A stretch of DNA of 64,000 nt from Actinomycetota bacterium (GTDB taxonomy: Bacteria > Actinomycetota > Thermoleophilia > Gaiellales > F1-60-MAGs149), in contig VFJZ01000057.1 of NCBI GenBank assembly GCA_009885805.1, forward strand, positions 46,652-110,651, read 5' to 3'. The translations under genes were made by a program, and so were the position numbers. Positions 5,265 to 64,000 of this stretch are shown here, piece after piece. Positions within the stretch are counted from its first letter, which is position 1, and each line of letters opens with the position of its first letter. The notes under the pieces are model-generated. The model did not search any database and was not told where the DNA came from. It saw only the letters and a list, made by a program, of their open reading frames with translations.

Positions 5265-6540
5265 GGACCGCTCGCGCGCGCTGTTCGCCGAGGCCCAGCA
5301 GCACATCCCCGGTGGCGTCAATTCGCCCGTGCGCGCGATGCGCTCCGTCGGCCGCGCCTTCCCCCTCTTCATCGCCTCGGCCGCCGGCGCGACGCTGACG
5401 GACGCCGACGGCAACGACTACGTCGATCTCGTCGGCTCGTGGGGGCCGATGATCGTCGGCCACGCGCATCTCGCCGTCGTCGAGGCCGTCCGCGAGGCGA
5501 TGGTCCGCGGGTCCTCGTACGGCGCCCCGACCGCAGGCGAGACCGACCTCGCGGTGCGCGTGAAGCGTGTCTACCCGGGTATCGAGCTGATCCGCTTCGT
5601 CTCGAGCGGCACCGAGGCGTCGATGAGCGCGTTGCGGCTCGCCCGCTCGGCGACCGGCCGCGAGAAGGTGCTCAAGTTCGCCGGCTGCTACCACGGCCAC
5701 GTGGACGCGCTGCTCGCCGAGGCCGGGTCGGGCATCGCCACGCTCGGCATCCCGTCGACGCCGGGCGTGCCCGCGAGCGTCACGGCCGGAACGATCGTCG
5801 TGCCATTCAACGACGACGACGCCGTCGACCGGGCGTTCGCCGCCCACGGTCGCGACCTCGCCTGCGCGATCGTCGAGGGCGTCCCCGGCAACATGGGCGT
5901 CGTGCCGCCCGCGCGGGGCTTCATGGAGCGCCTGCAGGCTCGCTGCCGCGAGTCGGGTGCCCTGTTCGTCGTCGACGACGTCATGAGCGGCTTTCGAGTT
6001 GCTCCCGGGGGTGCCGTCGAGCTCTACGGCCTCGAGCCGGACCTCGTCGTCCTCGGCAAGATCATCGGCGGCGGGTTGCCCGCTGCGGCCTTCGGCGGCC
6101 GCCGGCAGGTGATGGAGCTGCTGGCACCGCTCGGCTCGACGTATCAGGCGGGGACGCTATCCGGCAACCCGCTCGCGATGACCGCCGGCTGCGTGACTCT
6201 CGACCTGCTGGCCGAGCCAGGTGTCTACGACCGCCTCGAGCGGACGTCGGCGCGCCTCGCGGCCGGGCTGGGCGCCGCTGCGGCCGACGGCTGCTGCGTG
6301 CAGCGCGTCGGCTCGATGATGACGCTGTTCTTCCGTCCCGGCCCCGTCCGCTCGTTCGCCGAGGCGGCCGGCTCCGAGACGGGACGGTTCGCGGCCTTTC
6401 ACGCGCACTGCCTCGCCCAGGGCATCTACCTGCCGCCGTCGCAGTACGAGGCCTGGTTCGTCTCGCTTGCCCACGACGACGCCGCGATCGACGCCGTCGT
6501 CGCTGCCGCCGGTGGTTTCTTCGCCCGGAGCCCGCAGTGA
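5257..6540 (+). CDS. hemL: glutamate-1-semialdehyde 2,1-aminomutase
   Basis: IPGGVNSPVRAMRSVG, VLGKIIGGGLPAAAFGG, full-length GSAM similarity. Confidence 0.96.
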   Translation: MTEDRSRALFAEAQQHIPGGVNSPVRAMRSVGRAFPLFIASAAGATLTDADGNDYVDLVGSWGPMIVGHAHLAVVEAVREAMVRGSSYGAPTAGETDLAVRVKRVYPGIELIRFVSSGTEASMSALRLARSATGREKVLKFAGCYHGHVDALLAEAGSGIATLGIPSTPGVPASVTAGTIVVPFNDDDAVDRAFAAHGRDLACAIVEGVPGNMGVVPPARGFMERLQARCRESGALFVVDDVMSGFRVAPGGAVELYGLEPDLVVLGKIIGGGLPAAAFGGRRQVMELLAPLGSTYQAGTLSGNPLAMTAGCVTLDLLAEPGVYDRLERTSARLAAGLGAAAADGCCVQRVGSMMTLFFRPGPVRSFAEAAGSETGRFAAFHAHCLAQGIYLPPSQYEAWFVSLAHDDAAIDAVVAAAGGFFARSPQ

Positions 6541-6893
6541 TCGCGACGATCGCGGCGCGGGCGGCTGCGAGCAGCCCCGTGTTCGCCGCCAGCGTCCGTC
6601 CGACCCCCACCGGTGTGGCGGAGCACGGTCCGCGCGTTGCGCCGCGTTTCGCACTCGGGCTGGAACTGATCCACGAGGGCTACCTCGTGCACCAGGGCGC
6701 CTCACGCGCCTTCGCGCCACCGGATACGGAAGTGGCGATCCTGCTCGGCGACCATCTGTACGCGGATGGCCTGGTCGAGATCTGCCGGACTGGCGACCTC
6801 GTCGCCGTCGCCGCTCTCGCCGAGCTGATCGCGTCCGTCTCGATCGCGCCCGACGAGCCGGCCTGGGCGCGCGCGGTCGCCGCCCTCCGATGA
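6537..6893 (+). CDS. small polyprenyl-synthase-like protein lacking both DDxxD motifs
   Basis: GTGA overlap with hemL and ATGA overlap with ubiD-like gene; LELIHEGYLVHQGASR...ILLGDHLYADGLVEICRTGDLVAVAALAELI aligns to VELVHSATLVHDDVLDR...ATGDYLFARAFALMVETGDAAAVTELAECT of the full enzyme at 12349..13314. Confidence 0.75.
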   Translation: MIATIAARAAASSPVFAASVRPTPTGVAEHGPRVAPRFALGLELIHEGYLVHQGASRAFAPPDTEVAILLGDHLYADGLVEICRTGDLVAVAALAELIASVSIAPDEPAWARAVAALR

Positions 6894-8398
6894 ACGACCT
6901 CCGCGCCTGGATCGAGGTGCTGCGGCGGGAGGGAGAGCTGGCAGAGGTCACCGCCGAAGTCGACCCCTATCTCGAGATCACGGAGATCGCCGACCGCACC
7001 ATGAAGGCCGGCGGCCCGGCCCTCCTGTTCACGAACGTGCGGGGTTCGGCGATGCCCCTCCTGATCAACCAGTTCGGCACCGAGCGGCGGATGTGCCTCG
7101 CGCTCGGCGTCGCGACGCTGGACGAGGTTCGGGAGCGGGTGTCCGACGTCTTCGAGCTGCTCCAGCCACCGAAGGGCCTGTCCGCCGCGCTCGATGCGGC
7201 GGCGACGGGACTGCGCACGCTGCGCGACTCGAAGCCGAAGGTCGTCTCGAGCGGGCCGTGTCAGGAGGTCGTGATGGAGACGCCGGACCTCGACCGGCTG
7301 CCGATCATGACGTGCTGGCCCGACGACGGCGGGCCGTTCATCACCCTGCCGTCGGTCATCACCCGCGACGTCGTCACCGGCGGGCGCAACGTCGGCATGT
7401 ACCGCCTCCAGAAGCACTCGTCGACGACGCTCGGTCTGCACTGGCAGATCCACAAGGACGCCGCCGCCGACTGGCGCGAGGGCGCCGGCCGGATGGAGGT
7501 CGCGATCGCGCTCGGCACCGATCCGATCACGGCCTACGCCGGCTCGATGCCGCTGCCGAAGCACATCGACGAGTTCGCCGTCGCGGGGGTGTTGCGCGGC
7601 ACCCGCACCGAGCTCGTCCGGTGCCGAACGGTCGACCTCGAGGTGCCGGCGAACGCCGAGATCGTGATCGAGGGCTACGCGGAGCGCGGCACCCTGCATC
7701 CCGAGGGGCCGTTCGGCGACCACACCGGCTACTACACGCCGGTCGAGCCGTTCCCGCTGCTGCACGTGACGGCGATCACGCACCGGCGCGACCCGATCTA
7801 CCCGTCGATCGTCGTCGGCGTGCCGCCGTCCGAGGACGTCTGGCTCGGCAAGGCGACCGAGCGCATCTTCCTGCCCGCCGTGCAGATGACGCTGCCCGAG
7901 GTCGTTGACTACGACCTGCCAGCCGCCGGTGTCTTTCACAATTGCTGCATCGTCGCCATCCGCAAGCGCTTCCCCGGCCATGCGCGGAAGGTGATGCACG
8001 CGATCTGGGGAACGGGACTTCTGTCTCTGACCAAGGCGGTCGTCGTGGTCGACGAGTGGGTGGACGTGCACGACTACACCCAGGTGATGTGGCAGCTCGG
8101 AGCGAACGTCGACCCGGCGCGCGATGTCCTCGTCTCCAGCGGGCCCCTCGACCAGCTCGACCACGCCCCTGCGATCCAGAGCCTGGGCGGTAAGATCGGC
8201 TTCGACGCGACCCGGAAATGGCCCGAAGAGGGCTACCCACGGGTGTGGCCGGAGGTCGCGCGGATGTCCGCTAGCGTTCGCGAGGCCGTCGACGAACGTT
8301 GGTCGGCGCTCGGCATCCGACTCGACGTCGTCGCGCGGGTCGACGCCGGCAGTTCGGCCCGATCCCGGCGTCGTTTTTTTGGCCGGGGCAGCCCGTGA
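6890..8398 (+). CDS. UbiD family decarboxylase (MqnL-like by context)
   Basis: MNDLRAWIEVLRREGELAEV...; conserved UbiD sequence HPEGPFGDHTGYYTP, PAVQMTLPEVVDYDLP. Confidence 0.93.
   Translation: MNDLRAWIEVLRREGELAEVTAEVDPYLEITEIADRTMKAGGPALLFTNVRGSAMPLLINQFGTERRMCLALGVATLDEVRERVSDVFELLQPPKGLSAALDAAATGLRTLRDSKPKVVSSGPCQEVVMETPDLDRLPIMTCWPDDGGPFITLPSVITRDVVTGGRNVGMYRLQKHSSTTLGLHWQIHKDAAADWREGAGRMEVAIALGTDPITAYAGSMPLPKHIDEFAVAGVLRGTRTELVRCRTVDLEVPANAEIVIEGYAERGTLHPEGPFGDHTGYYTPVEPFPLLHVTAITHRRDPIYPSIVVGVPPSEDVWLGKATERIFLPAVQMTLPEVVDYDLPAAGVFHNCCIVAIRKRFPGHARKVMHAIWGTGLLSLTKAVVVVDEWVDVHDYTQVMWQLGANVDPARDVLVSSGPLDQLDHAPAIQSLGGKIGFDATRKWPEEGYPRVWPEVARMSASVREAVDERWSALGIRLDVVARVDAGSSARSRRRFFGRGSP
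8341..8380 (+). terminator. intrinsic (Rho-independent) terminator
   Basis: CGACGCCGG (8341-8349) / CCGGCGTCG (8365-8373) perfect 9-bp stem immediately followed by TTTTTTT (8374-8380). Confidence 0.8.
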
Positions 8399-8424
8399 TC
8401 GAGCTTGTGCCGTCTGTTCTCACG

Positions 8425-8454
8425 TTGACATCCGTCCGAAGGGTGAATCACAAT
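8425..8454 (+). promoter_or_regulatory. sigma70-type promoter for Rieske/cytochrome b operon
   Basis: TTGACA (8425-8430) - 18 nt - CACAAT (8449-8454), followed by AGGAGG RBS (8475-8480). Confidence 0.6.
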
Positions 8455-8489
8455 GCCGCCGTCAATGCCCTCGCAGGAGGTTGAGTCTC

Positions 8490-9122
8490 GTGGCTGATCC
8501 CTCTGGGGGCCACACCGGGAACGAAGGAGCGGGCGCCGCCGGCGCTCACGTTGATCCGGCCAGCGCCCGCGCGGCCGTCTCTCGTGGACGCTTTCTGACC
8601 GGAGTCACGCTGGGACTCGGCGGCATCCTCGGCGCCGCCATCACCGTTCCCGCGATCGGGTTCGCTCTCGGGCCGTCGTTCGTGGGCGAAGAGTGGTACT
8701 GGGCCGACCTCGGCTCGGTCGACCTGTACAACGAGGAGTACACCCCCGTCATCTTCGAGCGGGGGCCGGGTGGCCACCTCGATCGTCGCGTCGCCTTCAT
8801 CCGGCGCGACGGGCCCGACGCCTTCACAGCGATCTCCAATACCTGCATGCATCTCGGCTGCCCGGTCGTCACGCGCGGCGGCGCCTTCGCCTGCCCGTGT
8901 CACGGCGGGCAGTACGACTCGGAGGGGCGCCGCACGCTCGGACCGCCGGTTCGACCGCTGAACCGCTTCGAGTTCAAGATCGAGGGCGGCAACCTGCTGC
9001 TCGGCCGCGTGTTCGCCGCCGAGGAGCGGGGCGACGAGGTCATCACGTCGAAGGTCTGGAAGGACCCCGGCCAGCAGGTCGAAGGTCTCCTGTCGTTCCT
9101 CTACCCGACGCCGCCGCGTTAG
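8490..9122 (+). CDS. qcrA: Rieske 2Fe-2S protein of menaquinol:cytochrome c reductase
   Basis: N-terminal TM, CMHLGCPV...CPCHGGQYD Rieske motifs; AGGAGG RBS upstream. Confidence 0.93.
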   Translation: MADPSGGHTGNEGAGAAGAHVDPASARAAVSRGRFLTGVTLGLGGILGAAITVPAIGFALGPSFVGEEWYWADLGSVDLYNEEYTPVIFERGPGGHLDRRVAFIRRDGPDAFTAISNTCMHLGCPVVTRGGAFACPCHGGQYDSEGRRTLGPPVRPLNRFEFKIEGGNLLLGRVFAAEERGDEVITSKVWKDPGQQVEGLLSFLYPTPPR

Positions 9123-9133
9123 GAGCTCCCGCG

Positions 9134-9847
9134 ATGGCACCCCCGATTCCAACTCCCAAAGAGGTTGTCCAGATCCCGCTCGACTGGGTCGAGGAGCGCT
9201 CCGGTCTCGTCTCGCTGCACAAGTACCTGCTGTTCCGGAACGTCCCGAAGGACATCTCGTGGCTCCAGACGCTCGGCTCGGCGCTGATCACGACGTTCAT
9301 GATCCAGGTCGTCACCGGCATCCTGCTCGCGATGTACTACCACCCGACGGCCGACGGCGCCTTCGAGTCGATCCGCTACATCACCGACGAGGCGACGCTC
9401 GGCTGGCTCGTACGAGGTATGCACAAGTGGGGATCGAGCATGTTCGTGATCCTCCTCTTCCTGCACATGGGCCGTGTGTTCCTGATGGGCTCGTACAAGT
9501 ATCCGCGGGAGATGACGTGGCTGACGGGAGCGATCCTCTTCCAGCTCGTGATGTTCATGTCGCTCACCGGCTACCTGCTGGTGTTCGACCAGCGCGCCTA
9601 CTGGGCGTCCGTCGTCGCCATCAACATCAACGGCACGGCGCCGATCCTGGGACCGTTCATCGCCGAGTTCCTCAAGGTCGGGCCGGAGTTCTCGGAGAAC
9701 ACCCTGTCGCGCTTCTACTCGCTGCACATGCTCGCCGTCCCCGGCGGCATCATTGCCATGATCGGCCTGCATCTGTACCTCGTGATCCGCCTCGGCGTCA
9801 CCTCACCGCCGTGGTCCAAACATCGCGCGAAGGCCGGTGACGTCTGA
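9134..9847 (+). CDS. qcrB: cytochrome b6-type subunit
   Basis: LQTLGSALITTFMIQVVTGILLAMYYHPTADGAFESIRYI...LHMGRVFLMGSYKYPREMTWLTG...LHMLAVPGG. Confidence 0.95.
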   Translation: MAPPIPTPKEVVQIPLDWVEERSGLVSLHKYLLFRNVPKDISWLQTLGSALITTFMIQVVTGILLAMYYHPTADGAFESIRYITDEATLGWLVRGMHKWGSSMFVILLFLHMGRVFLMGSYKYPREMTWLTGAILFQLVMFMSLTGYLLVFDQRAYWASVVAININGTAPILGPFIAEFLKVGPEFSENTLSRFYSLHMLAVPGGIIAMIGLHLYLVIRLGVTSPPWSKHRAKAGDV

Positions 9848-10713
9848 TGCCGCGACTGACTGCACGGGAGCGGCGCGAAGCCTACCAGCGCGAGCACGAC
9901 TTCCAGGTGAAGACCGGGAAGGCGTTCTTCCCGTACGCGATCTTCCACGACACGGTCGCCAGCCTCGTCACCGTCGTGCTGATCATGGGCATGTCGATCA
10001 TCTGGTGGGCCGACTTCGGACCGGTCCCCGACGATCCGGAAGCCGGCCGCGCCGGTGGCTTCCTCGGCCCCGCGTACGAGAATCGGGCCGACCCGGGCAC
10101 CGAGGAGTACGACCCGCGGCCCGAGTGGTACTTCTTCTTCCTCTTCCAGCTCCTCCGGATCTTCAAGGAGCCGGAGATGCTGCTGTTCGCGACCATCATC
10201 ATCCCGACGCTGCTGATGGTGCTGATGATGGCCTGGCCGTTCATCGATCGGCGGCCGGAGCGACGCGTCTCGCGGCGGCCGATCGCCATGGTGCTCGCGG
10301 TCGCGACACCCGTGGCCCTGATGTTCCTGACGTGGGAGGGCTCGAAAGCGCCGGCCGTCGGCGCCGCCTCGGACCATCCCGGTGCCGCCGCCTTCGCGAA
10401 CTTCCAGCCGTGCGGCACCTGCCACACGCTGGCTGACGCGGGCACGGGCGGTACCGTCGGGCCGAACCTCGACACCTCGAACCCCGACTACGCAACCGCC
10501 CTCGCCATCATCGCGGACGGCAAGGGTGCGATGCCGGCGTTCAAGGCGCAGGGTCTGACCGACGACCAACTCTCCTGTCTCGCCGGGTACATCGCGACCT
10601 GGGCCGGTGCGCAGGCAGGCGCGCCAGGGCCGAAGGCCCCGACGGCAGAGGGCTATCCCGACTCCTGTACCGCGGCCGGCCCCGACTACGCGGGCGCCGG
10701 CGCCGGCGGCTAG
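9847..10713 (+). CDS. qcrC: cytochrome b subunit IV fused to c-type cytochrome domain
   Basis: RADPGTEEYDPRPEWYFFFLFQLLRIFKE (subunit IV) followed by FQPCGTCHTLADAGTGGTVGPNL...MPAFKAQGLTDDQLSCLAGYI (CxxCH cytochrome c). Confidence 0.94.
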   Translation: MPRLTARERREAYQREHDFQVKTGKAFFPYAIFHDTVASLVTVVLIMGMSIIWWADFGPVPDDPEAGRAGGFLGPAYENRADPGTEEYDPRPEWYFFFLFQLLRIFKEPEMLLFATIIIPTLLMVLMMAWPFIDRRPERRVSRRPIAMVLAVATPVALMFLTWEGSKAPAVGAASDHPGAAAFANFQPCGTCHTLADAGTGGTVGPNLDTSNPDYATALAIIADGKGAMPAFKAQGLTDDQLSCLAGYIATWAGAQAGAPGPKAPTAEGYPDSCTAAGPDYAGAGAGG

Positions 10714-10968
10714 TGGTTCGACGCGGAAATGGGGTTGTGGTCGAGGTTCTTGGAGCGAGCGGGAGGATCGCCCGTCGCGCGGGGCTTGCTGGAGCAAGGG
10801 CAAGCGGCGGGCGGGTCGCCCGCGAAGCCCGCGGCTGCGCCGCTTGCGGCGCAGTTGTCGGTCGCCGGAGCGTGATGGTGCGGCGGGCTGCGGTTCGACC
10901 GCAGCGCCAGCATGCGCAGGACGATCCAGGGGCCTCCGAACGCCGCGCCATTTCGGGGGCGCACCACT
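10712..10968. mobile_element. MITE-like 257-bp structured element, copy A
   Basis: Imperfect terminal inverted repeats AGTGGTTCGACGCGGAAATGG / (rc right end) AGTGGTGCGCCCCCGAAATGG; strongly similar to the reverse complement of 63805-64000; contains palindrome TGCGCCGCTTGCGGCGCA. Confidence 0.8.
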
Positions 10969-10978
10969 GAGCGGCACC

Positions 10979-11004
10979 GGGCCGGGGCGGCGACGCCCGG
11001 GCCC
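10979..11004 (+). promoter_or_regulatory. GNRA-capped hairpin upstream of ubiX-like gene (terminator/attenuator candidate)
   Basis: GGGCCGGGGCG-GCGA-CGCCCGGGCCC, 11-bp stem with one G-G mismatch. Confidence 0.5.
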
Positions 11005-11021
11005 TGCGATCCTTCTGGCAT

Positions 11022-11612
11022 ATGCGTGTCTTTCTCGGCATCACCGGCGCCTCGGGCGCTCCGTACGCCGCTCGTGTCCTCGACGGCCTGACGGCCGCCG
11101 GCGCCGAGGTCGGGCTCTGCGTGTCGGCCGCCGGCGCCGAGGTGCTCGCCTGGGAGCTCTACCGCGACCGGACGCTGCCGGCGGACGTCGCCGTCGCCCG
11201 CCTCGTCGCCGAGCACGGCTCCGCTCGCGTCACCGTCTACGCCGAGGACGACTGGTTCTCACCCTATGCCTCGGGCTCCGCCCGCTGCGACGCGTACATC
11301 ATCTGCCCCTGCTCGATGGCGACGTGCGGCACGATCGCCTCGTCCGGACAGGCCAACCTCATCCACCGCGCCGCTGGCGTCGCCCTGAAGGAGGACCGCC
11401 GCCTCGTCCTCGTCCCGCGAGAGACGCCGCTGTCCGTCATCCATCTCCGCGCGCTACTCACGCTGCGGGAGGCGGGCGCGCTGGTGGCGCCGGCGATGCC
11501 GGGCTTCTACGGCCATCCCGATACCCTGACGGACGCGATCGACTTCGTGGCGGGCAAGGTGCTTGATCTGGTGGGTGTTGACAACGATCTGCTGAGGCGG
11601 TGGGGCGGATGA
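11022..11612 (+). CDS. UbiX family flavin prenyltransferase (MqnM-like by context)
   Basis: MRVFLGITGASGAPYAARVL...CPCSMATCGTIASSGQANLIHRAAGVALKEDRRLVLVPRETPLS. Confidence 0.95.
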   Translation: MRVFLGITGASGAPYAARVLDGLTAAGAEVGLCVSAAGAEVLAWELYRDRTLPADVAVARLVAEHGSARVTVYAEDDWFSPYASGSARCDAYIICPCSMATCGTIASSGQANLIHRAAGVALKEDRRLVLVPRETPLSVIHLRALLTLREAGALVAPAMPGFYGHPDTLTDAIDFVAGKVLDLVGVDNDLLRRWGG

Positions 11613-12352
11613 GCGGCGCGGCGCTCGAGCCGCGCGCCGCCGACGGCACGCTGCCGCCCGAGCGGGTGCAGGCGATGTTCGATCGCATCGCCCGCCCGTA
11701 CGACCTGATGAACCGCGCCATGACGGTCGGCCTCGATCGGCGCTGGCGCTCGCTCGCCGCGGACGAGGCCGGAGTCGGGTCGGGCGCCGCCGTCGCCGAC
11801 ATCTGCTGCGGGACGGGTGATCTCGCGCTGGAGCTGGCGGCGCGCGTCGGCGCCGCCGGCGAGGTCACCGGGATCGACTTCTCCGCCAACATGCTGACGA
11901 TCGCGCGGCAGAAGGCGGCCGACCGCGGCGTTGCGAACATACGCTTCGTCGCCGGCGACGCCCTCGCGCTGCCGATCGGCGATGACGAGGTCGCCGCGGC
12001 GACGATCGCCTTCGGCATGCGCAACCTCGCCGACCACGCGCAGGGCTTCCGGGAGCTCGCCCGGATCGTCCGTCCGGGCGGACGCGTCGTCTGCCTCGAG
12101 ATCACCACGCCGCGCAACGGTCTCGGACGGAGCTTCTACCGGCTCTGGTTCGACCGTCTCGTCCCCGCCATCGGCGGTCTCGTCGACCGCGGTGAGAACG
12201 CCTACTCCTACCTGCCGGCGTCGGTTCGGCGCTTTCCGCCGCCTGGCGAGCTCGGTGCCGTCATGTTCGCAGCCGGACTCGAGCGCGTCCGCTACCGGCT
12301 GCTGGCGGGTGGCATCGTCGCGCTGCACGTCGGCGAGGTGCCCCTCGCGTGA
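11609..12352 (+). CDS. menG: demethylmenaquinone methyltransferase (UbiE/MenG family)
   Basis: VQAMFDRIARPYDLMNRAMTVGLDRRWR, ADICCGTGDLALELAARV, ATGA overlap with ubiX-like gene. Confidence 0.92.
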   Translation: MSGAALEPRAADGTLPPERVQAMFDRIARPYDLMNRAMTVGLDRRWRSLAADEAGVGSGAAVADICCGTGDLALELAARVGAAGEVTGIDFSANMLTIARQKAADRGVANIRFVAGDALALPIGDDEVAAATIAFGMRNLADHAQGFRELARIVRPGGRVVCLEITTPRNGLGRSFYRLWFDRLVPAIGGLVDRGENAYSYLPASVRRFPPPGELGAVMFAAGLERVRYRLLAGGIVALHVGEVPLA

Positions 12353-13314
12353 GCGCGATCGACGAGATCTCCCTGCTCGCCGGGCCAGGCGTCCGCTCGT
12401 ACCTCGGCCGCCTCGAGGCGACCCTCGAAGCCGCGACGTCGTGGGGGGCCGGAGCGACGCCGGACGCCGCGCGCGACACGCTTGCCGCTGGCGGCAAGCG
12501 CCTGCGGCCCGTTCTCGTCTACCTGTCCGCGGCGGACCGGGACGGTGACGACCTCGTCGCGGCCGGCGCGGCGGTCGAGCTCGTCCACTCGGCGACGCTG
12601 GTCCACGACGACGTCCTCGACCGCTCCGCTCTGCGGCGCGGGCGGCCGACCGTCTGGGCGCTGCACGGCCCGGCGCGGGCGACGGCGACGGGCGACTACC
12701 TGTTCGCCCGCGCGTTCGCCCTGATGGTCGAGACCGGCGACGCCGCCGCGGTCACGGAGCTCGCCGAGTGCACGCTCGGGCTCGCCCGCGGCGAGGCCCT
12801 CCAGATGCAGCAGGCGCGTCGGCCCGACACGACGCCCGATCAGTACCTGGAGCGGTGCGGGCTCAAGACCGGCCTGCTGTTCGCCACCGCCTGTGCGCTC
12901 GGCGGTCGTCTCGGCGGCGTCCCTCCGACATTGCTGCCGGCGCTCCGGCGCTACGGACACGACCTGGGCCTCGCGTTCCAGCTGAGCGACGACGTGCTGG
13001 ACTGCGCCGGGTCGATCTCTGCCACCGGCAAGCCGATCGGCACCGACCTGCTCGACGGCACGGCGACGCTGCCCCTGCTCTACGCCGCCCGTCTCGACGT
13101 CGCCGTCGCGGCGGCGATCGCAAGGCGCCCGGAACCGGATGCCGTTCTCGGCCTGCTCACCCGCGTCGCCGACACCGGGGCGCTCGCGGCGGCACGCGCC
13201 ATCGCGCACGAGCACGCAGCGCGGGCCGAGGCTGCGCTCGACGATCTCGATGACCACCTCGACACCCGACCGCTCCGCGCCGTGGTCCGCGGAGTCGTCG
13301 ACCGGGAGGGATGA
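12349..13314 (+). CDS. polyprenyl diphosphate synthase
   Basis: GGKRLRPVLVYLSA, VHDDVLDRSALRRGRPT, LAFQLSDDVLD; GTGA overlap with menG. Confidence 0.93.
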   Translation: MSAIDEISLLAGPGVRSYLGRLEATLEAATSWGAGATPDAARDTLAAGGKRLRPVLVYLSAADRDGDDLVAAGAAVELVHSATLVHDDVLDRSALRRGRPTVWALHGPARATATGDYLFARAFALMVETGDAAAVTELAECTLGLARGEALQMQQARRPDTTPDQYLERCGLKTGLLFATACALGGRLGGVPPTLLPALRRYGHDLGLAFQLSDDVLDCAGSISATGKPIGTDLLDGTATLPLLYAARLDVAVAAAIARRPEPDAVLGLLTRVADTGALAAARAIAHEHAARAEAALDDLDDHLDTRPLRAVVRGVVDREG

Positions 13315-13363
13315 GCATGCAACGGTCGGAGCGAAGCGGAGGCCCTTGCGTGCGGTGGCGAAT

Positions 13364-13396
13364 GCCGTGCGACGATGCGACGAAGGAGCGCACGGC
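13364..13396 (+). promoter_or_regulatory. hairpin presenting the mqnE Shine-Dalgarno in its loop
   Basis: GCCGTGCG (13364-13371) / CGCACGGC (13389-13396), loop contains AAGGAG; ATG at 13397 directly abuts the stem. Confidence 0.5.
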
Positions 13397-14521
13397 ATGA
13401 GCATGGCGATCGCCACCACCCGCAATGCCGAACTCGTCGAGATCCGGGCCAAGGTCCTGGCTGGCGAACGCCTCGACCTCGACGACGGCATCGCGTTGCT
13501 CGAGTGCGATGACCTGCTCGGCCTCGGCGACCTCGCCGACACGGCGCGGCGCCTCCGCGGCGGCAGCGACGATGTCTTCTTCGTCAACAACCTGTACCTC
13601 AACCACACGACCGTCTGTCGCGTGAAGTGCAAGTTCTGCGCCTTCGCGCGCACCTCGAAGCAGGCCGATGCCGAGACGTGGGAGATCGACGATCTCGTCG
13701 CCAAGGCGGTGAAGATCCGCTCCCACCAGGAGTTCAGTGAGATCCACATGGTGGGCGGCGAGAGCCCGCATCTGGACTTCCAGTACTACCTCGACATCAC
13801 GCAGTCGCTGCGCGAGGCGATGCCCGACGTCCACCTGAAGCTGTTCACGGCGTCCGAGATCCACCACATGACGAAGCTGTCGGGATTGACGCACCGCGAG
13901 GTGCTGGAGCAGTTGATCGCCGTTGGCCTCGACACGCTCCCCGGTGGCGGCGCGGAGGTGTTCTCGCCGCGCGTGCGGAAGATCATCGCTCCCGGCAAGG
14001 AGCCGGGGCAGACGTGGCTCGAGACCCACCGGACCGCGCACGGCCTCGGGCTGAAGACGCACTGCACGATGCTCTACGCCCATGTCGAGACGTTCGAGGA
14101 GCGCATCGAGCACCTCCTCGCGTTGCGCGACCTCCAGGACGAGACCGGCGGGTTCATGGCCTTCATCCCGCTCCCGTTCCATCCCGAGAACACCGTCTTC
14201 GAGCGGCGCGGCTGGAAGTTCACGACCGGGATGGACGATCTCAAGATGATCGCCGTGTCGCGGCTCATGCTCGACAACATCGAGCACGTCAAGGCCTACT
14301 GGATCATGATCTCGACGCCGCTCGCGCAGGTGGCGCTGCATTTCGGTGCGAACGACATCCAGGGGACCGTCGTCGAGGAGAAGATCGCGCACGCTGCCGG
14401 CGCCGTCACGCCCACCGAGGCGAAGGTCGCCGATCTCGTCCGCGTCATCCGCGAGGCCGGGCGCCGCCCGGTGCAGCGCGACACCTTCTACCGAACACTG
14501 CGAACCTTCGACGCGCCATGA
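13397..14521 (+). CDS. mqnE: aminofutalosine synthase (radical SAM)
   Basis: LNHTTVCRVKCKFCAFAR radical SAM motif; HMVGGESPH, GVDTLPGGGAE-type sequence, PIPFHPENT-like PLPFHPENT. Confidence 0.93.
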   Translation: MSMAIATTRNAELVEIRAKVLAGERLDLDDGIALLECDDLLGLGDLADTARRLRGGSDDVFFVNNLYLNHTTVCRVKCKFCAFARTSKQADAETWEIDDLVAKAVKIRSHQEFSEIHMVGGESPHLDFQYYLDITQSLREAMPDVHLKLFTASEIHHMTKLSGLTHREVLEQLIAVGLDTLPGGGAEVFSPRVRKIIAPGKEPGQTWLETHRTAHGLGLKTHCTMLYAHVETFEERIEHLLALRDLQDETGGFMAFIPLPFHPENTVFERRGWKFTTGMDDLKMIAVSRLMLDNIEHVKAYWIMISTPLAQVALHFGANDIQGTVVEEKIAHAAGAVTPTEAKVADLVRVIREAGRRPVQRDTFYRTLRTFDAP

Positions 14522-62543: not shown

Positions 62544-63806
62544 GTGAGAACCGTCGCTCGCCACCTCGCCCGCGTTGTCCTGGGGCCGTCGGAGAACCAC
62601 TTCCGGCGGCTCTGGTTCTCGCTGGCGGTGACGATGTTCGGTACCTGGGCCGGCGCCGTCGCTCTCAGCGTCCGGCTGTACGACCAGACCGGTTCGCCGA
62701 CGTACGCCTCCCTGCTCTACGTCGCGGAGTTCGCCCCCGTCGTGCTGATCGGCGTTCTCAGCGGGCGGCTCCTCGACCGGCTGCCCCCCGTGCGCGCGCT
62801 GGCCGTGCTCGAGGTCGTCGCCGGCGCGATGTGGTTGCTGCTCGTGTTCGTCGACCGGCCGCCGCTCGTGATCGCGCTGGCGTTCGTGACGGGGGCCTGC
62901 GCGGGTGCCTACAAGATCCTCGCCACGAGCGCCGTCTCCCTGCTCGTGAGGGACGACGATCTCGCCGCCGCCAACGCGGCCACGCTCTCGATCGACAACA
63001 TCACGACGACGCTCGGTTTCGCCGCAGGCGGTGCGTTGCTGGGGTTTGCGGCGCCGGAGTTCGTGATCGGCCTGAACGCGGCGACGTTCGCGTTCAGCGC
63101 CCTGCTGCTGGTGACCGTCCCGTACCTGCGCGCGCCGCTCGACGCCGCCACGCTCGCTGCGCAGCCGTTCCGCGACCGGATGACGCTCGGCGCCCGGCGG
63201 ATGTGGCAGAACCCCCGTTTGCGCGTCGTCCTCCTGTCGCTGCCGATCGCGACCGCGGGGATCGGGGCGGCCAACAGCCTCGAGGTTCCCTACCTGCGCG
63301 GAACGGCCGGATTCTCGCCGACCCTGATCGGCGTCGCCCTGGCCGGCGCCGCCTGTGGCCTCGTGCTGGGTGCCTGGGTGGCGCCCTTCCTGCCCGCGAC
63401 GACGAACACGTACATCGTCGCGATGGCGGTCATGGGGGTGTCCTGGGCGGTGGTCGCAATGACGGTGATGCCAGCGCCGATCATCGCCGCCAACCTCGCC
63501 AGTGGTGTCGCCAACGGCGTCGCGATCATCCGTTTCCGGACGACGATGCAGGAGGAGACGCTGCCCGCCGAACGCGCCTCGACGATCGGATTCATCTACG
63601 CGCTGGCGTTCGGGCTGGGCGTCGCCGGTGCGGCCGTCGCCGGCCCGATCGGATCGCAGATCGGCGTTCGCGAGGGATTGCTGCTCGGCGCGGGGCTGTT
63701 CGCTGTCACCGCCGTGGTCGCCCTCGCCGCCCACGTTGCCACGCGCGCCGCCGGGCCGGTGCTCGCGGACGACGGCGCCGGCGCGAGGGTCGACGCCAGC
63801 CGCTAG
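62544..63806 (+). CDS. MFS transporter
   Basis: About 12 TMs; SENHFRRLWFSLAVTMFGTWAGAVALSVRLYDQTGSPTYASLLYVAEFAPVVLIGVLSGRLLDRLPPV. Confidence 0.9.
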   Translation: MRTVARHLARVVLGPSENHFRRLWFSLAVTMFGTWAGAVALSVRLYDQTGSPTYASLLYVAEFAPVVLIGVLSGRLLDRLPPVRALAVLEVVAGAMWLLLVFVDRPPLVIALAFVTGACAGAYKILATSAVSLLVRDDDLAAANAATLSIDNITTTLGFAAGGALLGFAAPEFVIGLNAATFAFSALLLVTVPYLRAPLDAATLAAQPFRDRMTLGARRMWQNPRLRVVLLSLPIATAGIGAANSLEVPYLRGTAGFSPTLIGVALAGAACGLVLGAWVAPFLPATTNTYIVAMAVMGVSWAVVAMTVMPAPIIAANLASGVANGVAIIRFRTTMQEETLPAERASTIGFIYALAFGLGVAGAAVAGPIGSQIGVREGLLLGAGLFAVTAVVALAAHVATRAAGPVLADDGAGARVDASR

Positions 63807-64000
63807 TGGTGCGACACGGCAATGGCGCGATGTTCGGAGGCCCCTGGATCGTCCTACGCGTGGTGGTGACGCGGTCGAAGGGCTGACCGCATCTCCAACG
63901 CGCTGCGGCGACCGTCTGCTGCGCCGCAAGCGGCGCAGCCGCGGGCTTCGCGGGTGACCCGCCCGCCGCTTGAACTTGCTCCGGCAAGCCCAGCGCGACG
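63805..64000. mobile_element. MITE-like structured element, copy B (inverted relative to copy A, truncated by window edge)
   Basis: AGTGGTGCGACACGGCAATGGCGCG...TTCGGAGGCCCCTGGATCGTCCT...TGCGCCGCAAGCGGCGCAGCCGCGGGCTTCGCGGGTGACCCGCCCGCCGCTTG matches the reverse complement of 10712-10968. Confidence 0.8.

Follow-up and report, generated by a model that had tools for sequence, protein, structure and literature searches.

The 255-bp stretch that separates a cytochrome gene from a ubiX-like gene in the window, by which we mean the whole 64,000-nucleotide stretch of DNA analyzed here, is a copy belonging to a genuine MITE family. The family is new; the element type itself is ordinary and already known. 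Its members carry no genes, and they are probably moved in trans by a transposase of the IS630 family (Tc1/mariner type), a parent that we infer. Assignment to IS630 appears likely from the targeting of TA within CTAG, together with the resemblance of the terminal inverted repeats (TIRs) to those of IS630 elements from the same class.

Alignment of many copies placed the limits of the window copy at 10713-10967 on the + strand. The first-pass annotation had proposed an element of 257 bp at 10712-10968; the element itself held, with each end corrected by one base. The left TIR (GTGGTTCGACGCGGAAATGGGG) occupies 10713-10734 (+) and the right TIR 10946-10967 (-), and the inverted ends are present as originally quoted, matching at 17 of 21 positions. 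Between them lie a stem-forming left internal core (10752-10829, +) and a right internal core (GCGCAGGACGATCCAGG, 10914-10930, +) that shows almost no variation in either of the two genera discussed below. With the window at 71.5% GC, it is to be expected that open frames run across the element; a Pfam search of the ORFs overlapping it matched no family, in agreement with the earlier view that it holds no credible ORF, and no copy encodes a protein.

Upstream lies a gene for a cytochrome b C-terminal/cytochrome c fusion (9847-10713, +), whose TAG stop is the insertion site, and downstream a gene for a ubiX-like flavoprotein (11022-11612, +). The left target TA (10711-10712), part of a CTAG, also forms the first two bases of that stop. 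The sequence at the insertion reads GGCGGCTA-[G...C]-TGAGCGG, the right target duplication having decayed at 10968-10969 to TG, either by a one-base change from TA or by an inserted G. The surrounding cluster, at about 6467-14521, comprises ubiD-like, Rieske, cytochrome b, cytochrome b/c fusion, ubiX, methyltransferase (menG/ubiE-like), polyprenyl synthase-like and radical-SAM menaquinone-type genes, names that were partly read off translations, with two genes only tested against Pfam. A second, inverted family copy was found where it had been reported, at the right edge of the window (about 63804-64000, the start being approximate, - strand). It has a CTAG target at its left edge and is truncated because the right edge of the window is the end of contig C100 (110,651 bp).

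The family is present at about 20 copies in the window's own genome (G000, from an uncultured actinobacterium; 3.56 Mb, 101 contigs). BLAST of the element against this genome returned 30 places at E <= 0.001, and the element is thus not merely a matter of the two copies in the window; eight near-full-length copies had E below 1e-70 and 83-89% identity, the query itself excluded. A TIR pattern allowing up to 3 mismatches matched 32 times, and the reversed-pattern control gave 0 matches. The flanks of the copies are unrelated and similarity stops at the TIRs, with none extending beyond the proposed limits. Both ends are retained even in shorter variants, the smallest of about 109 bp. The many copies, their shared TIR bounds and their CTAG targets bear out the first-pass description of a non-autonomous transposable element. 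On contig C35 (51575-51980), a possible response-regulator gene is followed downstream by two MITE copies that are within about 400 bp of each other.

The same MITE family occurs in a different genus of the same taxonomic family, in Actinomycetes bacterium 336R_metabinner_16 (JANYCN01; G001), where the TIR pattern gave 261 matches, corresponding to about 130 copies (control 0). Copies in this genome range from 74 to 316 bp, with size classes of 256 and 316 bp, and the size variants arise by internal deletion and insertion. Of the MITE copies sampled, most frequent are those of the 316-bp class, and its members (e.g., L110:1501-1816) carry in an internal loop a 61-bp insert consisting of two hairpins, GCGGGCGTGCTGGATAGCACGCCCGC and GCGTGTCAAGGCGAAGGCCTTGACACGC. 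Within a class-wide sample of 399 genomes, the family was carried by these two genomes only. The class-wide BLAST matches outside them, and two plasmid matches, were short and weak and were judged to be chance; the viral contigs and plasmids searched held no copies. Contigs end inside MITE copies at 63804-64000 of the window, on contigs C10, C78 and C83 of G000, and at many G001 contig starts, so that assembly is interrupted at the repeats, and an autonomous element may be concealed there.

Examination of the target sites, as the first-pass annotation had proposed, revealed TA within CTAG flanking the copies. Among a set of 20 elements compiled for G001, one row of which (L117) is actually a G000 copy, C precedes the left TA in all 20 and G follows the right TA in 19. 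Intact G000 copies have CTAG on both sides; since CTAG is palindromic, duplications of 2 bp (TA) and 4 bp (CTAG) look alike at intact copies. Exceptions such as L005 and L013 have CTAG on the left and CTAA or CTAC on the right, and given these we favor a 2-bp TA duplication while leaving some room for one of 4 bp.

In 24 of 26 genomes the ubiX gene could be placed, and a cytochrome-gene homologue lies upstream in every one of those loci. In relatives other than G001, the gap between the two genes is 9-315 bp and the element is absent; a search of those relatives' genomes for the element gave no significant full copy. The cytochrome stop falls within CTAG in many of them, for example GGCGACTAGCCGACC in G006. 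The G001 locus has a further gene between the cytochrome homologue and ubiX. The pre-insertion site is visible in the relatives, and the empty site sought earlier is accordingly established by comparison at the level of genes, not of strains. Stop-codon targeting as a special feature of the family was considered and rejected: 20 of 34 elements abut the stop of a long frame, compared to 34 of 46 background CTAG sites, and the association therefore reflects where CTAG occurs, the background being as high or higher. Joining of flanks to find disrupted genes was uninformative, as long chance frames occur at 71% GC.

PMC2170065 describes IS630-family transposition into TA as duplicating the TA, and gives a CTAG preference for IS630, citing Tenzen and Ohtsubo 1991. 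The window's own genome has three IS630-type (PF13358) genes. An intact IS630 of about 1.17 kb on contig C34 (374 aa, PF13358, ends TAGTGTCCTGTCGCGGAG, target CTAG) sits at the edge of a MITE, inserted exactly at that MITE's CTAG. The IS630-like genes on C10 and C13 were discarded as parents, having no MITE-like ends. At L085:1034-2340, a short MITE variant directly adjoins an intact IS630 whose insertion site is the CTAG of that MITE, and L071 (C30) resembles the same MITE and IS630 pair after a deletion.

Elsewhere in the class, IS630 elements end in sequences like TAGTGTTCTGATCGG (L194), TAGTGTCTTGATTGG (L198) and TAGTGGTCCATCCGG (L197); the TA there is flanked by C and G, which gives a CTAG target, as for the MITE. 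The tip TAGTG is common to these ends and to the MITE TIRs, which take the forms TAGTGGT-CTGATTGTC-AAATGGC and TAGTGGT-TCGACACGG-AAATGGC. The MITE TIRs are closer to the class IS630 TIRs than are shuffled TIRs (mean-identity P 0.002 and 0.0045 over 22 nt), the resemblance past the first bases being moderate, similar and not identical. In G001, the genome richest in copies, the only trace of IS630 was a C-terminal fragment located where a contig ends, and it is most similar to the L197 transposase. Neither G000 nor G001 nor the sampled genomes yielded an autonomous element bearing the MITE's own TIRs; the search for a parental transposase with matching TIRs, suggested by the first-pass annotation, returned none with identical ends, only IS630 relatives whose TIRs are similar and whose target is shared. 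On contig C81 of G001, a pair of TIRs spanning 2331 bp was examined as a candidate autonomous element and proved to belong to two distinct short MITEs, with two ordinary genes between them.

In the history that we propose, an IS630-family DDE transposase would bind the TIRs, excise the element and paste it at a TA, which would be duplicated in the process. The window copy would have inserted into the CTAG containing the stop codon of the cytochrome gene, and the stop has been preserved, since TAG is read again from the duplicated TA and the first base of the element, G. Lying between the cytochrome gene and ubiX, the element is probably harmless. A transcript of it, if made, would form a long hairpin.

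The MITE might instead derive from another CTAG-targeting DDE family, of the IS701 or IS5 type, an assignment that we consider unlikely. An IS701-type transposase (PF13546) is present in the same genome, and the preference of IS701 for YTAR targets counts in favor of such a source. The visible end of the resident IS701 (TAGGGCTTTGTTAGCGG on the reverse strand) nevertheless differs from the MITE TIRs, and this transposase was rejected as the parent; the CTAG-left, CTAA/CTAC-right exceptions are more easily explained by a 2-bp TA duplication than by one of 4 bp, and the shared TAGTG tip is that of the class IS630 ends. Almost no credence attaches to the idea that the repeat is not mobile and is instead an ancient repeat between genes or an artifact of assembly. 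Several copies do fall at the ends of contigs, the points at which assembly breaks off, but unrelated flanks inside long contigs, occurrence in two independent MAGs, precise common ends and CTAG targets all argue against it.

The fold of the element brings in a further reading, in which it serves mainly as a structured RNA or regulatory element, maintained for the sake of its fold, with mobility incidental. The window copy folds end to end at -153.2 kcal/mol (z -3.7), compared to -121.5 (z -2.9) for its other strand, and a 316-bp G001 copy reaches -214.4 (z -14.2). In the consensus structure, 93.4% of cells are paired and 26 pairs have changes on both sides, although these represent few independent events, essentially two lineages, and maintenance of a palindrome would also yield them. 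None of the shuffles reached the observed values for cells paired, double changes or covariation, and slid structures dropped to 31-46% paired. The consensus fold is stronger on the + strand (-95.5) than on the other (-69.9), both far below column shuffles. Set against this, the copies occupy arbitrary CTAG sites with unrelated neighbors, internal parts are freely deleted, giving lengths of 74 to 316 bp, and an Rfam covariance-model search gave no match. We therefore regard a primary role as RNA or regulator as very unlikely, and retain the reading of a MITE mobilized by an IS630-family transposase.

The sole feature that goes past routine is a block-wise difference between the TIRs of the two genera; the remaining biology is ordinary. 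In an alignment of eight G000 and seven G001 copies, identity between lineages was 71-81% for the TIR tips, 75-81% for the inner heptamer, and 80% and 81% for the left and right cores, whereas the 9-bp inner TIR block had only 26% (left) and 34% (right), which is chance level; within lineages the figure was 76-87%. In this block the two ends have changed in concert. Read most simply, the pattern in these sequences suggests that the TIRs of each lineage match a different transposase, the ends having been re-tuned. Retention of the cores may reflect recent exchange between the genera or selection on structure. A more specific model, which we offer tentatively, is that of a modular TIR, in which the tip TAGTGGT and the inner heptamer AAATGGC would stay fixed and frame an exchangeable 9-bp recognition block that would be swapped at both ends together to suit the IS630 transposase of the host, with the structured interior preserved.

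Two further elements with the same frame and other inner blocks are known, both found by a search for that frame. An Acidobacteria MAG (MNEX01000038.1) holds a 163-bp element at CTAG (L246:2641-2803) with ends TAGTGGT-CCGATCGCG-AAATGGC, and its genome gave no further clear copies. A related short element of about 168 bp in G186 (L160, about 1355-1523, -) likewise lies at CTAG and has the TIR TAGTGGTCTGTCCC.

Among known repeats, RUP (repeat unit of pneumococcus) is short and gene-less, with about 110 copies, TA ends, a TIR resembling that of an IS630 element (IS630-Spn1) and a stable fold (PMC2229807, PMC3049150). The MITE shares these traits of a short gene-less repeat, TA ends, IS630-like TIR and stable fold. 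RUP, however, is 107 bp and AT-rich, with its parental IS630 in the same genome, whereas the MITE is 255 bp, GC-rich and CTAG-specific, and its parent was not found. The Correia/NEMIS elements of Neisseria are alike in having TIRs of about 24 bp, TA ends and a long hairpin, and their size classes of 107 and 155 bp, which differ by an internal 50-bp insert, recall the 256- and 316-bp classes of G001; the hosts are different, and the likeness is one of description. With IS630/Tc1-mariner insertion sequences, the MITE has in common the TA duplication, the CTAG preference and, in class members, the TAGTG tip, but it has no transposase and the TIRs are only partly alike.

These results add a highly amplified MITE family, at about 130 copies in one genome, to a little-studied actinobacterial class, and the family accounts for breaks between contigs in these MAGs. 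With both TIRs changed block by block while the interior is conserved, it provides a natural test of how the ends of a MITE track transposase specificity.
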